From assembly GCA_944331805.1 (NCBI GenBank), contig CALVIS010000009.1, positions 1 to 36,948 of the forward strand: 36,948 nucleotides of DNA, given 5' to 3'. The translations under genes were made by a program, and so were the position numbers. The stretch comes from an uncultured Bacilli bacterium (lineage in GTDB: Bacteria > Bacillota_I > Bacilli_A > RF39 > UBA660). Position 1 is the first letter of the stretch, and the number at the start of each line of letters is the position of its first letter. Below, piece by piece: positions 1,511 to 15,003 of this stretch. Below the pieces are notes generated by a model, which did not search any database, was not told the origin of the DNA, and worked only from the letters and a program-made list of their open reading frames with translations.

Positions 1511-3334
1511 CTATCCTTGTTCAATTTCAAATGGATTCTGTAAAGTACCATCACCATCTGTTATTATGACATTTGATTTTAAATTAATGGATGGGCGAAT
1601 ATTATATGGATTCCAAGGAGCAAAATTTGCACCATAACCATTGCTAAAGATAATACGTACGTAATAAGAGGTATCCCCAGGAGTTAAAGTCCAAGAATAT
1701 GTGTCACTAACATATTCAACAAATTGTCCTGCCATTAACTCACCAAACCTTAGTAATCCCACTTTCGCAATAGTTGTATTAGAAGTTAATGATGTCATAT
1801 TTATATCTGTATACTTTGCTAATTTATAATTTTGGCCATTTGCCACTGCTCCTAAATACCAAGTAGTATTATTTTCTATCATATTAACTTGTTCATTTGT
1901 TAAATAATCACCGTTAGTTAAATATTCTCCATTAAGAAAGCTTCCTATTGTATTTGTACTTGAATAGTTTACATTACCTCCAAAGGCAAGTGATTTATAA
2001 TTTCCATTTTCTTTTAATGGCTCTACACTTGCTATTTTTGTTAATCCTTCAGTCTCATGACTTACTATTTGATATAAATTATTTTCTCCTATTCCAAAAC
2101 TTATATATTCCCCACTATATCTTGTATTTAATAGTGTTCCTTCTAAATTAGTATCCTTATCTCCTTCAAGCCGATAAGGATTATCTTCCGTTCCATCTCC
2201 TGCTACTATTTTAATATTAGGTTTTAAATTTACCACTGGTCTTATACCACGACCATTTGTAACTCCAAGTGTTCCAATAGAGCCATCATAACTAACTATA
2301 TAATTAGTTGAAGAATTATTTGCAGTTATAGTCCACCAATAAAGATTATTATTTAAATAACTATTACTGCCACCAGTCATATTATACTCATAAACATTTA
2401 AAAGTCCTACAGCATCTTCTACTATTGTTCCACCTTCTTCTTCACTTGGTGGTTTACTAGTATCGGACATCTGGCTTGCATTCCATTTACTATCCATCTT
2501 TATAAATTTCTCTGGTTCTCTTAAATTATATAAAAAGCCATCTACTGTTGTATCATTTAACCAAGATTCCATATAACTTCCTGCAAAGGCACTACTATCA
2601 TTGTCATAGTTAACTGTACTTATATTCCACTGCGTTACTAACTTAACACTATTATCACTTGGGCTTATACTTACTACTCTCCATAATTTACCAGAGTACC
2701 ATATATAATTATAAGGATTACTCCCCGTTACAAAGGTCTGTTCAGAGTCATCATAATTTAACCTATTCATTATATCATCTTCTATTACTTCTTTAACTGT
2801 TCCAGTTGATATTATTTTCCTTAGTAAATGTCCGTTTTCTGGTAACTCTAAATCATTATAATCTAATCCTACACTTACTCCTAAATTAATTGTTACACTA
2901 CTATTTGTAGTATTTGCAACTCTTACTATATAAGTATTACTACTTCCTGTTGTATCTACTTTCTCTAAATTTATTCCTGTACTAGATGGTGGTGTATTTA
3001 CTCCTTCTTTTTCTATATATCCTATATCTACTCCATCAGGTAAACTTTCTTCATAATAAAAGTTAAATCTTCCTACTCTATTATTAGGGTTAGATAAACT
3101 TACTATAAAATCTTTTCTACTATTTGCAGATACTGTTAAAGTATTTTCTTCTTCGCCATCTACTTTTAATTCATAAGTTAAATTACCTGTTACTATACTT
3201 ATAGCATTTTCTTTTTCTTTTGTTACTGTAAACATAGCATAAGAAAAGTATCCTCCTAATATTAATAGAGTTATTATAATCATTACTATCATATAAATTT
3301 TACTAAAACTTGTTTCTAATAATATCTTTTTCAT
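1511..3334 (-). CDS. membrane-anchored surface protein with two DUF6273-like modules and a variable C-terminal core
   Basis: The protein has 607 residues. A short basic N-terminus precedes one membrane segment (about 14-34). A beta-rich region (about 45-160) follows and recalls the CalY/TasA-type layout. Then come two tandem modules, about 208-390 and 398-607. Each begins with a Y-I-x-G-LW/LY-VVS type strand and ends with RPxxNLKxN..I..GDGTxxNP. This pattern resembles DUF6273 domains of gut Firmicutes surface proteins; that family assignment is from memory. There is no LPXTG-type tail, so the N-terminal helix is probably the anchor. I chose the ATG at 3334 rather than the upstream one at 3361 because AAAGGAG sits 7 bases before it. 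Residues 537-580 differ strongly from the truncated copy at 36156-36881 while the flanks are conserved. The leader carries a G9 tract and a terminator-like hairpin. Ligand and role are unknown. Confidence 0.85.
   Translation of the reverse strand: MKKILLETSFSKIYMIVMIIITLLILGGYFSYAMFTVTKEKENAISIVTGNLTYELKVDGEEENTLTVSANSRKDFIVSLSNPNNRVGRFNFYYEESLPDGVDIGYIEKEGVNTPPSSTGINLEKVDTTGSSNTYIVRVANTTNSSVTINLGVSVGLDYNDLELPENGHLLRKIISTGTVKEVIEDDIMNRLNYDDSEQTFVTGSNPYNYIWYSGKLWRVVSISPSDNSVKLVTQWNISTVNYDNDSSAFAGSYMESWLNDTTVDGFLYNLREPEKFIKMDSKWNASQMSDTSKPPSEEEGGTIVEDAVGLLNVYEYNMTGGSNSYLNNNLYWWTITANNSSTNYIVSYDGSIGTLGVTNGRGIRPVVNLKPNIKIVAGDGTEDNPYRLEGDKDTNLEGTLLNTRYSGEYISFGIGENNLYQIVSHETEGLTKIASVEPLKENGNYKSLAFGGNVNYSSTNTIGSFLNGEYLTNGDYLTNEQVNMIENNTTWYLGAVANGQNYKLAKYTDINMTSLTSNTTIAKVGLLRFGELMAGQFVEYVSDTYSWTLTPGDTSYYVRIIFSNGYGANFAPWNPYNIRPSINLKSNVIITDGDGTLQNPFEIEQG
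1595..1726 (-). other. hypervariable core of the second surface-protein module (expressed copy)
   Basis: This segment encodes residues 537-580 of the surface protein, between the conserved GELMAG and the conserved PSINLKSN. The corresponding segment of the copy at 36237-36368 has nearly the same length (44 versus 44 codons), but few residues match apart from aromatic and glycine positions. The flanking DNA is clearly homologous, including a 35-base identical run at 2112-2146 and 36751-36785. Sharp loss of similarity inside conserved flanks is the usual picture of a diversified exposed loop region. Confidence 0.6.
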
Positions 3335-3360
3335 CTTCTTACTCCTTTCATTTATGCACA

Positions 3361-3392
3361 TAAAAAAGAATAGAATTATCCTCTATTCTTTT
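3361..3392 (-). terminator. terminator-like hairpin in the leader of the surface-protein gene (candidate attenuator)
   Basis: On the minus strand an 11-base-pair stem (AAAAGAATAGA with TCTATTCTTTT, positions 3382-3392 and 3364-3374) encloses a 7-base loop and runs into a T-rich tail. It lies about 20 bases before the Shine-Dalgarno of the surface-protein gene and about 150 bases after the stop of the upstream gene. That position suits an attenuator better than a simple 3' terminator of the upstream gene. Confidence 0.6.
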
Positions 3393-3425
3393 AAGCCATA
3401 ATGAAAGAAAGTAACTAAATTACTA

Positions 3426-3473
3426 CTAAACTGCCCCCCCCCAAGTAACATATTGTAAACATAACATCTTCAT
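3426..3473 (-). CDS. putative 15-residue leader peptide containing the G9 tract
   Basis: The ORF starts at an ATG preceded by AGAAGG seven bases upstream and reads MKMLCLQYVTWGGAV before TAG. The G9 homopolymer supplies the W-G-G codons. With one G fewer (or two more) the frame would extend to 29 residues and stop inside the 5' arm of the hairpin at 3364-3392. With one G more it would stop after 19 residues, still short of the hairpin. The ORF overlaps a second promoter candidate (3452-3480). If transcription starts there, the ATG is not in the transcript and this ORF is meaningless. Confidence 0.35.
   Translation of the reverse strand: MKMLCLQYVTWGGAV
3434..3442 (-). repeat. G9 homopolymer (C9 on the plus strand), candidate slipped-strand tract
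   Basis: Nine consecutive G on the minus strand in a very AT-rich genome, and by far the longest G/C run I see in the window. It lies in the leader of the surface-protein gene, either 9-10 bases downstream of the -10 of the 3452-3480 promoter candidate or inside the small leader ORF. Such tracts are classic sites of polymerase slippage in phase-variable surface genes. Confidence 0.7.
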
Positions 3474-3480
3474 AGTTCAA
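3452..3480 (-). promoter_or_regulatory. promoter candidate P2 of the surface-protein gene
   Basis: TTGAAC (3475-3480) and TACAAT (3452-3457) are separated by exactly 17 bases on the minus strand. Transcription would start a few bases before the G9 tract, placing the tract in the initially transcribed region. Confidence 0.5.
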
Positions 3481-3507
3481 CCTTCTTTCTTATCTTTTGT
3501 TAATTTA

Positions 3508-3536
3508 ATGTTATCACAAATTACTTTAAATAACAA
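3508..3536 (-). promoter_or_regulatory. promoter candidate P1 upstream of the leader ORF
   Basis: TTGTTA (3531-3536) and TAACAT (3508-3513) are 17 bases apart on the minus strand, just after the stop of the 3D-domain gene. A transcript from here would contain the leader ORF, the G9 tract and the hairpin. Confidence 0.35.
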
Positions 3537-3541
3537 TATTT

Positions 3542-4219
3542 TTAATAACCAACTCTCAATATTTTAAAAGTAACATTCCGACTAACACCATAGTTTATCG
3601 CTTCTTTACTTGTCTTAAACAATAAATCAAAGTCATATACTCTACCAAATCCAATATTACGTCCTGTATCTAAAACAATTCCAATAAAACTACCAGCATT
3701 GCTATTACTAACTTCTATAACAGTACCAAAAGGAATACTTCCATCTCCTGCTAATATTCTAATATCACCATAAGTAGAATCAGAATAATAAATACTATCA
3801 CCTATATAATGTCCTGAAGCCGTATAATTACCAATATCAGAACCATATCCACTCATAGTACCTTTAAAAGTAGAACCAACTGTAATAGAAGGAACATAAA
3901 CTTCTTCTGAAGGTTTACTATCAATAGGAGTATTATCTTCTATTACTTCGTCTTTTCCTACAACTACTTCTTCTTTAGGCTCCTCTTCTACAACCTCTTC
4001 TTGAACTTCTTCCTCTACTACTTCAGGTTCTTCTTCTACCTCTTCTACTATTTCAACAGGTGCAACTTCAATAACTTCTTCTTTTGTAATCGCATCACTA
4101 TTTACATAAGTAATTTTATTATTTACATCTATATCCTTTACATTAGGTGTAGTTGTACTAACAAGTAAACAACACCCCATAAATAAAATTGCATTAATAA
4201 TATAAATGGTTCTCTTCAT
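3542..4219 (-). CDS. secreted 3D-domain protein (putative cell-wall-active)
   Basis: The protein has 225 residues. It has an N-terminal hydrophobic segment (MKRTIYIINAILFMGCC...), then a Glu/Val-rich low-complexity linker (about 55-95), then a C-terminal domain of about 105 residues. This domain carries the 3D signature: GTMSGYGSD..., ASGHYIGD, and the DTG...GFGRVYDFDLLF stretch with the spaced Asp residues. The same domain occurs in YocH- and YuiC-type muralytic proteins and resembles the MltA catalytic region, so peptidoglycan cleavage is plausible but not shown. ATG at 4219 is preferred over the in-frame GTG at 4228 because AGAAGG lies 11 bases before the ATG and only 2 before the GTG. The acidic linker probably spans the wall. 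The surface-protein gene follows 207 bases downstream on the same strand. Confidence 0.8.
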   Translation of the reverse strand: MKRTIYIINAILFMGCCLLVSTTTPNVKDIDVNNKITYVNSDAITKEEVIEVAPVEIVEEVEEEPEVVEEEVQEEVVEEEPKEEVVVGKDEVIEDNTPIDSKPSEEVYVPSITVGSTFKGTMSGYGSDIGNYTASGHYIGDSIYYSDSTYGDIRILAGDGSIPFGTVIEVSNSNAGSFIGIVLDTGRNIGFGRVYDFDLLFKTSKEAINYGVSRNVTFKILRVGY

Positions 4220-4303
4220 AAATATCACTGCCTTCTATATACATTTATATCTTAACACATAGACACTTATAAGACAACCACTTGACAAAAAGATTAGTGT
4301 AAA

Positions 4304-13010: not shown

Positions 13011-13664
13011 TTATATTTCTTCAAAAATGTAGATTGTTTGATTATAATCATCATTATGAGTACAAGTTATTAGTGTTAATGTTTTCATATTGGGATTACG
13101 ATATATTGCAACAGTTCCTGTTTTAGCTTGATTATAAATATTAGTTAAACGATAATTATAGGTATTAGCATTATAACTGACACTAGCTTCATCACCTATC
13201 TGTAGTTTATATAATTTGTCAAAAAAGGATATATAAGCATTACCTGAATGAGCCATAAGAATAAAGTTTCCTAGAGGAACATCCGGATAATTAGCTTCTT
13301 GTGCTATAGTTATATTATATTCTATATTGTTATATCTTGATTCTTTAGATACAAAGCCTCTTCTTAGTTTGATTTTAGGTATTGATAATTCTCCTATATA
13401 AGAGTAATTAGCTTTTTTATCATTTTCTTCTGCTTCTGTAGTATTCTCGGAAGTTACTTCTAGATTTTCAGTATTTACATTATTAATAGTTGTGTTATTT
13501 GTTTCATTAATATTTAATTGGAATATTGCAAGTCTCATTTCTTCGAAAACTTCCCCCTTTAATTTTTTTAAAGGAGTACTTATAAATATTAGTATTCCTA
13601 CTATAAGGAACAAAAAGCCAACCTTAGGAAGTTGGCTTTTTATGTTTTTACTTTTTCTTTGCAT
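13011..13664 (-). CDS. sortase (cysteine transpeptidase) with atypical active-site residue
   Basis: The protein has 217 residues from the ATG at 13664. A basic N-terminus and membrane helix (about 13-31) precede an Asn/Thr/Glu-rich linker and the sortase barrel. His139 (MAHSGN) and Cys201 (TLITCTH) are the catalytic pair. The Arg normally found 7-9 residues after Cys is absent; Gln209 occupies that place. The expected job is to cleave the VPDTA signal of the adjacent surface protein and link it to the wall. The start overlaps the end of that gene by 17 bases without a clear Shine-Dalgarno, pointing to translational coupling. A TTG at 13685 gives a longer but less likely N-terminus. A strong terminator hairpin (13612-13641) lies inside codons 8-18. 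Class assignment is open. Confidence 0.85.
   Translation of the reverse strand: MQRKSKNIKSQLPKVGFLFLIVGILIFISTPLKKLKGEVFEEMRLAIFQLNINETNNTTINNVNTENLEVTSENTTEAEENDKKANYSYIGELSIPKIKLRRGFVSKESRYNNIEYNITIAQEANYPDVPLGNFILMAHSGNAYISFFDKLYKLQIGDEASVSYNANTYNYRLTNIYNQAKTGTVAIYRNPNMKTLTLITCTHNDDYNQTIYIFEEI
13612..13641 (-). terminator. intrinsic terminator between surface protein and sortase, inside the sortase 5' coding region
   Basis: AAAAAGCCAAC (13612-13622) and GTTGGCTTTTT (13631-13641) form a perfect 11-base-pair stem with an 8-base loop and built-in T tract, usable on both strands. It begins 7 bases after the stop of the surface-protein gene and overlaps codons 8-18 of the sortase frame. Confidence 0.8.
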
Positions 13665-15003
13665 TTTTTGGTTTTCTAGCCACAACTATTAAGACAATAC
13701 CTGCTATTATAACTAGTGCTCCTATTCCATATACTAAGTATGATGTACTAGCGGTATCTGGAACATCAATACTTGGTGCTTCTAAATCTAGAGAAGTAGA
13801 CGCTGATTGTCTTTCTATTTGTCCTAATAAAGCTCTTTGTAAACCAGAACCTTCAGGTGGGTTATAAATATAAGCATCATAATAATCTTTAAAATAACCT
13901 GCTATAGTAATATTTGCTTTAAATGCATCACCATTAAGTTCAGATATAGGAATACGAATTTTAAATCCTTGTGTTGCACTAATTGAGGAAGCATCTAATA
14001 AATTATTATTTTCATCAACAATTTCAACATTTCCAACAGCATTATTTACTTGTACTGAATATGACTCGAAAGTGGAGTTTGAACTAGTTGGTCTTACTAA
14101 ACTAGTTTCAACATAATCATTATTCATTGTATATGTTATGTTACTTTCATCAATATTAATATCAATGCTACCTTTATCGCCAGTATAATCACTCTCATGT
14201 GCTTTAGCATCAACTACTAATTGCTTTATAGATTGTCCTATACTATTATTTTCTAGCATTTTTTTATCTAGTACTGATAAATTGTTTAAAAATTTGTAAT
14301 TAGTCGCCTCTCCTAAGTCGTTTTTTTCATATTTGTCTTCATAACTAGTTTCAATTGCGGTATCAGATGTACCATCTTCTTTTTTGTAGTTTACTGCATC
14401 ATCAAATCCATTCGCTCTATCGACATACCACCATACTGCAATTTGAGTGTAATAATAATTTTGTTCTGCACTTCCACCTAGGCGTTCATGTTCTTGAAGA
14501 ATATATATAAGTCCTGGATAATCCGCTGTAACATCTAATGCTTCAATACCATTTGTTTCTGGGGCAATATCACTTAGAGATTTTACTGAATTACCTTTGA
14601 CATATATATCACTTTCCATCTCTAATCTTCTATCCATACAATATATGTAGCTTATAAATTTACCATCAGCTGTTTGACCTGAGAAGTTTTTTGGCAATTG
14701 TATATAATTATAAACTGAAGGGTTTTCTTCATTCATATTTACATTTCCTTCTATTAGTATTTGATAATTACCTTGACCTACTGATATTACCGATGTAAAT
14801 TGTTCTGGAACTGGCACAAGAAAATCAGCAGCATAGCTTTCTTCTGTGTCAATAAATATTCCTATTACTATAAGAACTGCTATTAAACAACAAGAAATAA
14901 TTCCTATCTTTTTAACGTCATTCATGGCTTTATCCATTTTGTCTTGACTTCTTTTTTCTTTACTTCTTTTTATTTGTCTTTTAGAACTCATTTTAGAACT
15001 CAT
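13648..15003 (-). CDS. sortase-anchored surface protein with thioester (TED-like) domain
   Basis: The protein has 451 residues. A basic N-terminus, membrane/signal segment (about 33-50) and processing region (ESYAAD) lead into a domain whose Cys122 (YIYCMDRR) and Gln187 (YYTQIAVWWYVDR) match the internal Cys-Gln thioester pair of bacterial thioester adhesin domains. These domains can bond covalently to host surfaces. Beta-rich segments follow, including IDINIDESNITYTMNN and SVQVNNAVGNVEIVDE. The C-terminus has a canonical sorting signal: VPDTA at 414-418, a hydrophobic helix and a basic tail RKPKNAKKK. The sortase gene is immediately downstream and overlapping. AGGTGAT precedes the ATG, and a TTGAAA-17-TATACT promoter lies just upstream. 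It is likely a wall-displayed adhesin; the thioester assignment rests on motif recognition only. Confidence 0.82.
   Translation of the reverse strand: MSSKMSSKRQIKRSKEKRSQDKMDKAMNDVKKIGIISCCLIAVLIVIGIFIDTEESYAADFLVPVPEQFTSVISVGQGNYQILIEGNVNMNEENPSVYNYIQLPKNFSGQTADGKFISYIYCMDRRLEMESDIYVKGNSVKSLSDIAPETNGIEALDVTADYPGLIYILQEHERLGGSAEQNYYYTQIAVWWYVDRANGFDDAVNYKKEDGTSDTAIETSYEDKYEKNDLGEATNYKFLNNLSVLDKKMLENNSIGQSIKQLVVDAKAHESDYTGDKGSIDINIDESNITYTMNNDYVETSLVRPTSSNSTFESYSVQVNNAVGNVEIVDENNNLLDASSISATQGFKIRIPISELNGDAFKANITIAGYFKDYYDAYIYNPPEGSGLQRALLGQIERQSASTSLDLEAPSIDVPDTASTSYLVYGIGALVIIAGIVLIVVARKPKNAKKK

Follow-up and report, generated by a model that had tools for sequence, protein, structure and literature searches.

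In the pyrBI operon of Escherichia coli, a ribosome translating at the terminator prevents its formation, and the input is nucleotide supply, acting through transcription pausing. Slippage also controls surface genes, as in Neisseria porA and Bordetella fim, where poly-G or poly-C tracts between the -35 and -10 elements govern transcription. In Clostridioides difficile, phase variation of the surface protein gene cwpV proceeds via an intrinsic terminator and site-specific DNA inversion, without a leader ORF. The closest described system is pil1 of Streptococcus gallolyticus, in which a slippage-controlled attenuator containing GCAGA repeats was demonstrated through variants, terminator deletion, mutation of the leader start and chloramphenicol treatment (Danne et al. 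2014, PMC3894217). A long pil1 leader extends into or close to a stem-loop terminator, and the downstream surface genes are upregulated, while the short leader ends tens of nucleotides upstream; a second locus, pil3, was reported in the same species (PMC3894217).

The window analyzed here, a stretch of 36,948 nucleotides from an uncultured Bacilli bacterium, contains a minus-strand leader that resembles pil1 in that a simple repeat lies within a leader ORF, slippage shifts the frame, and the long frame ends at the terminator. Whereas pil1 and pil3 are two loci of one species built on a pentanucleotide (GCAGA), the repeat here is a G mononucleotide with up to 32 motif matches per genome; several unrelated leaders occur across genera, and there is a conserved element able to pair with the leader ribosome-binding site (RBS). 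In every sequence feature open to comparison, the element would work as pil1 does. Leaders of the Onthousia genus lack GCAGA repeats, and the likeness to the pil1 leader is assumed to be convergence. As in pyrBI, a ribosome would act at the terminator, but the input is a heritable tract length. Homopolymer slippage is shared with porA and fim, although a spacer tract of that type is found in sister genera of the family and not at the window locus. With cwpV the locus shares terminator-based phase variation of a surface protein, but the element uses a leader ORF and a tract rather than inversion. The initial annotation of this DNA knew of no slippage-controlled attenuator; the principle had in fact been demonstrated at S. 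gallolyticus pil1 in 2014 (PMC3894217). In the open literature (subscription journals fell outside the scope), we found no report of the element in this group of bacteria, nor of a mononucleotide version. The new aspects are the use of a mononucleotide, the scale, the repeated appearance in unrelated leaders, and the probable lock on the leader RBS. The features of the locus, in the direction of transcription, are as follows:

3542..4228, minus strand: conserved upstream neighbor marking the chromosomal slot (flank 70-99% identical in several genomes of the genus)
3508..3516, minus strand: extended -10 promoter element TGaTAACAT (TGATAACAT), 43 nt 5' of the leader ATG
3481..3490, minus strand: leader RBS AGAAAGAAGG (direct reading; kept across copies)
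3426..3473, minus strand: leader ORF in the assembled G9, OFF frame, MKMLCLQYVTWGGAV (direct reading; copy L013)
3443..3460, minus strand: conserved nucleotide block GTTTACAATATGTTACTT, 5' of the tract (base conservation in 141 copies)
3434..3442, minus strand: G9 slippage tract, predicted ON at G8 or G11 (8-11 in the orthologous slot)
3403..3413, minus strand: TACTTTCTTTC, candidate anti-RBS element able to pair with the leader RBS (duplex energy and minimum free energy fold)
3383..3385, minus strand: ON-frame stop TAG within the terminator 5' arm (located to the 5' arm or loop for 138 of 141 copies)
3362..3392, minus strand: predicted intrinsic terminator, hairpin (arms 3392-3381 and 3375-3364) and T-tail (fold; covarying pairs in a selected set)
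3342..3348, minus strand: Shine-Dalgarno sequence of the surface gene (direct reading)
1511..3334, minus strand: surface-protein gene with an N-terminal membrane or signal segment and a DUF6273 domain (domain and segment matches)

The G9 tract is the sole G/C run of six or more in the window. From the leader ATG at 3473 on the minus strand, the G9 reading spans 15 codons and stops at 3428-3426, a G10 reading would span 19 codons, and a G8 or G11 reading would span 29 or 30 codons and stop at the TAG at 3385-3383. These three readings, the tract, and the leader ORF with its own Shine-Dalgarno sequence had all been described in the initial annotation, and direct reading bears them out. The hairpin and T-tail that it had described are likewise present, but the stem has 12 base pairs rather than 11, with a computed folding energy of -10.9 kcal/mol (z -3.3). 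The likely ATG of the surface gene is at 3334; the listed ORF from 3361 begins at an ATG further upstream.

The host genome, which belongs to the genus of Candidatus Onthousia (1.37 Mb, 27% GC), contains 12 G-tracts of at least 8, ranging in length from 9 to 12, where its composition predicts 0.04 tracts of at least 9. All 12 lie on the sense strand in the same type of leader ahead of a gene, nearly always one for a surface protein, and at least two further copies carry shorter tracts (G6 and G7). Genomes were searched with a short tract-anchored pattern, and 31 of the 35 in the genus matched. Counts per matching genome ranged from 1 to 32, a few chance matches inside coding genes included; the reversed control gave almost none. 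When one genome per genus was sampled across the family, matches were restricted to the Onthousia genus, and the records bearing the element are Candidatus Onthousia species together with metagenome-assembled genomes labeled Bacilli or Tenericutes. A search of the element against Rfam at the gathering threshold returned no known RNA family. A viral origin was also considered and rejected: exact-motif matches in viral contigs are due to chance, and the element is absent there. To judge from the genomes, relatives of Candidatus Onthousia among uncultured gut bacteria appear to turn dozens of surface-protein genes on and off through gain or loss of a G in the leader.

To compare reading frames, we extracted 141 copies and defined the ON frame by a conserved ACT TTC TTT (TFF motif) downstream of the tract. 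Each copy carries a tract of G5 to G12 inside the leader ORF, and all three frame states are represented. In the ON frame, the path from tract to TFF is free of stops in 141 of 141 copies, and the stop falls inside the 5' arm or loop of the hairpin in 138; the two OFF frames end at least 21 nt 5' of the hairpin in 139 and 141 copies, respectively. A T-tailed hairpin is present in the sequence of all 141 copies kept for analysis, although the terminators were located through a complementarity search, which biases counts of paired bases. In 123 copies the leader has an in-frame ATG with a Shine-Dalgarno sequence. The linker between tract and TFF is highly variable, and its lengths cover all three residue classes, indicating that the open frame is kept despite insertions and deletions. 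Because the 141 copies share ancestry and are not independent, safer tests are provided by divergent linkers and by a second leader family, described below. Among 26 linkers less than 75% identical to one another, no stop occurs in 265 ON-frame codons, compared with 44 of 244 and 61 of 247 codons in the other two frames; dinucleotide shuffles of the same linkers contain on average 31 stops, with a minimum of 17. Selection, as far as the sequences reveal it, is acting on a reading frame that most copies do not use as assembled. The frame is less strict 5' of the tract: the leader start of five copies falls in a different frame, and the leader of L271 contains a stop codon. Inserted short repeats (TACCAGAATGGTAG and TTTTATCCTTAAGCATAAAA among them) recur in the linkers of L062, L113, L180, L183, and L295, whose ON frame stays open.

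Assigned by the conserved upstream frame, 17 of the 141 copies are ON, 85 exceed an ON length by one G, and the remaining 39 occupy the third state; correction for shifted starts moves L015, L049, L291, and L302 to ON and L314 to OFF, giving an ON share of about one copy in seven. In the window genome, the ON copies are L003, L022, and, through its shifted start, L015, while the window copy is OFF. G9 is the commonest tract, but not among copies whose frame would make G9 an ON length (3 of 21 copies versus 80 of 120; Fisher 1.2e-5), and when only representatives are counted it occurs in 0 of 5 ON-pairing cases versus 15 of 21 others (p = 0.007). These P values serve as guides only, given the common ancestry of the copies and the fact that the frame classes presuppose the usual start. 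The scarcity of G9 where it would be ON implies that ON states are less frequent than expected if length and frame were paired at random. Most OFF copies have the nearest ON length plus one G, in two unrelated leader families (the 141 copies and that of g81), and in most copies this one-extra-G frame is the earliest-stopping of the three.

Tract length varies between closely related loci. The window slot in genome G054 has a flank 99.1% identical to that of the window and a tract of 10 rather than 9, and three other genomes whose flanks are mutually 99% identical carry tracts of 9, 8, and 11. L017 and L034, with flanks 84% identical, have tracts of 10 and 9 and are predicted to be OFF and ON, respectively. 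The initial annotation had proposed comparing tract length in related genomes, and the comparison yields differing lengths, from 8 to 11, between near-identical loci, so that the objection of a fixed tract falls away. While this variation was seen between genomes, it suggests slippage of DNA within living populations. The parts, the frames, the stop positions, and the between-genome tract variation are established by the sequences themselves. The ON frame could also be reached with no change in the DNA, through programmed ribosomal frameshifting or through slippage of RNA polymerase on the G-run. The one-extra-G frame, which accounts for 60% of copies, is the one that a +1 ribosomal shift or the loss of one G from the RNA would correct. 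However, the tract differs between near-identical loci and copies exist in all three states, whereas programmed shifting would favor one fixed length and frame, and we consider this explanation quite unlikely.

The position of the promoter bears on how the tract could act. The extended -10 motif TGnTAWnAT is present in 70 of 118 unique leaders, with a peak 41-45 nt 5' of the leader ATG; shuffled sequences contain 5.6, and a control window has it in 4 of 120. Thus, at the window the promoter-like element precedes the leader, and the tract lies about 30 nt into the ORF, rather than between promoter elements as in a promoter-spacer switch. The initial annotation had offered as its alternative that TTGAAC-17-TACAAT is the promoter and that the tract tunes initiation directly. 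This site matches the consensus at 9 of 12 positions with the right spacing, but such promoter-like sites number 54 in the first 8 kb against 49 expected by chance, and the final T of TACAAT is a T in only 47% of copies, while a strongly enriched and consistently placed extended -10 lies elsewhere, upstream of the leader. Because tuning of initiation would also leave the conservation of a coding frame across the tract unexplained, we regard this alternative as scarcely credible. The ATG of the surface gene is mostly 23-42 nt 3' of the hairpin (about 70-140 nt in a minority of copies), which leaves little room for a promoter of its own and implies that transcription must usually pass the terminator.

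Immediately 5' of the terminator lies TACTTTCTTTC, which is complementary to the leader RBS (GAAAGAAGGTA) over approximately 11 pairs. The predicted duplex has a mean energy of -13.8 kcal/mol, with nearly all copies at about -14 and shuffled sequences at -7.2, and the helix is found both in the minimum free energy fold of the window leader and in the consensus fold of 81 leaders. Within the genus, an RBS and an anti-RBS taken from different copies pair as well as partners from the same copy, and covariation there carries no decisive weight because any purine-rich RBS, that of the surface gene included, pairs with CUUUCUUUC. In some leaders of a sister genus, both partners have changed and yet pair (AAGGAGGTAAT with ATTACCTTCT, CTAGGAGGTAAT with ATTACTTCCTAG, and AAAGGTAG with CTACCTTT), while other leaders of that genus pair poorly. 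We interpret TACTTTCTTTC as a probable lock on the leader RBS, with the RBS of the surface gene another possible target.

Pairing of TACTTTCTTTC with the surface-gene RBS has a mean energy of -12.9 kcal/mol, near that of the leader RBS, and so a translational component is inseparable from the transcriptional one. This similarity speaks for a purely translational switch, in which a ribosome in the ON frame would free the gene RBS from TACTTTCTTTC and the hairpin would serve as a spacer or as the end of the transcript. Such a switch is unlikely, since a U-tailed hairpin with covarying pairs separates leader from gene, the ON-frame stop lies in the 5' arm of this hairpin and not near the gene RBS, and the CUUUCUUUC element would pair with any purine-rich RBS.

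We also considered whether the leader peptide itself is functional. The GTTTACAA block is 94-100% conserved per base in the 141 copies, independently of the search pattern, and the two nucleotide blocks GTTTACAA and TACTTTCTTT show base-by-base conservation that includes synonymous positions. GTTTACAAnnnGTTACCT, at 3443-3460, is conserved even in copies that read another frame and may be a DNA or RNA signal. The peptide ends vary (IRAG, LKE, RIE, or KRE), since the frame in which the hairpin is read differs from copy to copy. The leader might nevertheless encode, under phase variation, a small peptide with a function of its own, its transcript ending at the terminator and the surface gene being separate; recurrence of the motifs LQxVTW and TFFHY among copies would fit such a peptide. 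We find this very improbable, as the peptide end is not conserved, the upstream block falls in a different reading frame in five copies, and the surface gene would be left with little room for its own promoter. A SecM-like arrest peptide was rejected as well: leaders ending in IRAG and a stop, which we take to resemble the end of the SecM arrest motif, are common, but the three other ends show that the arrest end is not conserved. The codon run for an end product that marks an amino-acid-sensing attenuator of the trp or his type was absent from the leaders, whose codons before the tract vary, and the genes downstream encode surface proteins rather than biosynthetic ones, unlike those of such attenuators. 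The amino acids of the leader thus seem unimportant, and it appears to be the position of the ribosome that counts.

We propose that the locus is very probably a phase-variable, slippage-controlled switch operating by ribosome-mediated antitermination, and the comparison of frames and tract lengths supports the slippage-switched attenuator suggested in the initial annotation. In this model, transcription would start at the extended -10, approximately 43 nt 5' of the leader ATG, and a ribosome following RNA polymerase would load on the leader ORF. With a G8 or G11 tract, which sets the ON frame in the window, the ribosome would reach the TAG and cover the 5' arm of the terminator, blocking the hairpin and allowing polymerase to continue into the surface gene. 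With G9 or G10, the ribosome would stop at least 20 nt short, the hairpin would form, and transcription would end. DNA polymerase slippage at the tract would switch the state in a heritable and reversible manner. Furthermore, pairing of TACTTTCTTTC with the leader RBS probably closes the leader after departure of the pioneer ribosome and so tightens the OFF state, while ON-frame ribosomes would keep the leader RBS open. Termination, slippage inside populations, antitermination, and the RBS lock are what we infer from these sequences.

The predicted surface protein of the window combines a hydrophobic N-terminal segment with a DUF6273 domain, and an NCBIfam search of the cargo proteins gave a name to one repeat protein only. 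The flank of the window slot is conserved across genomes, whereas the leader and surface gene in it vary, suggesting that the two are swapped as a pair between fixed places. Different cassettes of leader and surface gene occupy this same slot (3542-4228) in L036, L157, L221, L295, and L259. In L395, a homolog of the window surface protein has neither leader nor tract and lies beside a gene resembling tryptophanyl-tRNA synthetase. Elsewhere in the window, 13648-15003 encodes a possible adhesin, a protein whose match to the Pfam thioester domain (TED) falls just below threshold.

G-tracts of at least 9 occur in 143 of 241 genomes of the family, with up to 59 per genome, and two layouts dominate the sample that we read: the promoter spacer and the leader ORF. 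The first, which many genera share, places the tract between TTGACA and TATAAT, as in a classical promoter-spacer switch. Examples of TTGACA...G10...TATAAT, often ahead of surface or secreted genes, occur at about position 1501 in L322, L327, L335, L337, L338, L344, and L345 and at position 79 in L331. In L325, L334, and L336, likewise from genera other than that of the window, tracts of G9-G10 lie within or at the start of coding genes that read as acetyl- or acyltransferase-like and are candidate coding-phase switches. The second layout includes leader ORFs of unrelated sequence in g81 and g140 (MQKLNFKSLTYCILGGG, MVKRVVKLMFVRGGG, MDKVYYNKLTTMILGGG, and MMKKIINNMLTRGG) that follow the same frame logic. 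In their 29 copies, the ON-frame stop is at +53 to +116 (with two exceptions at approximately +30) and the OFF stops are at +0 to +22; as the ON frame is here the longest of the three, a choice that favors this result, the weight lies in the position of its end with respect to the hairpin. In 20 of the 29 the tract exceeds the ON length by one G. The g140 copies are weaker because the scan located no terminator in most of them and several end at contig ends. The frame logic that the initial annotation had read from a single locus is therefore borne out in 141 copies of the genus and in 29 copies with unrelated leaders from other genera.

A broader model can be tentatively outlined, though we consider it rather less than an even prospect. 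It would describe a self-locking system spread across the family, in which poly-G attenuators have at least three unrelated leaders, an element keeps the leader RBS closed unless ribosomes are in frame, deletion of a single G flips a bistable switch, and cassettes of leader and gene are exchanged between fixed slots, resulting in antigenic variation of the whole surface repertoire with only about one-seventh of the genes ON at any one time.

Slippage-controlled attenuation had been described at two pilus loci in a single Streptococcus species, and it now looks like a main means of surface-protein control in a genus of uncultured gut Bacilli, with up to 32 matches in a 1.5 Mb genome. With the promoter-spacer type present in sister genera, the family offers a natural comparison of two slippage mechanisms. 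Because tract length modulo 3 gives the predicted state of each switch directly from DNA, existing metagenomes allow the surface proteins that are ON in each host to be tracked without culture.
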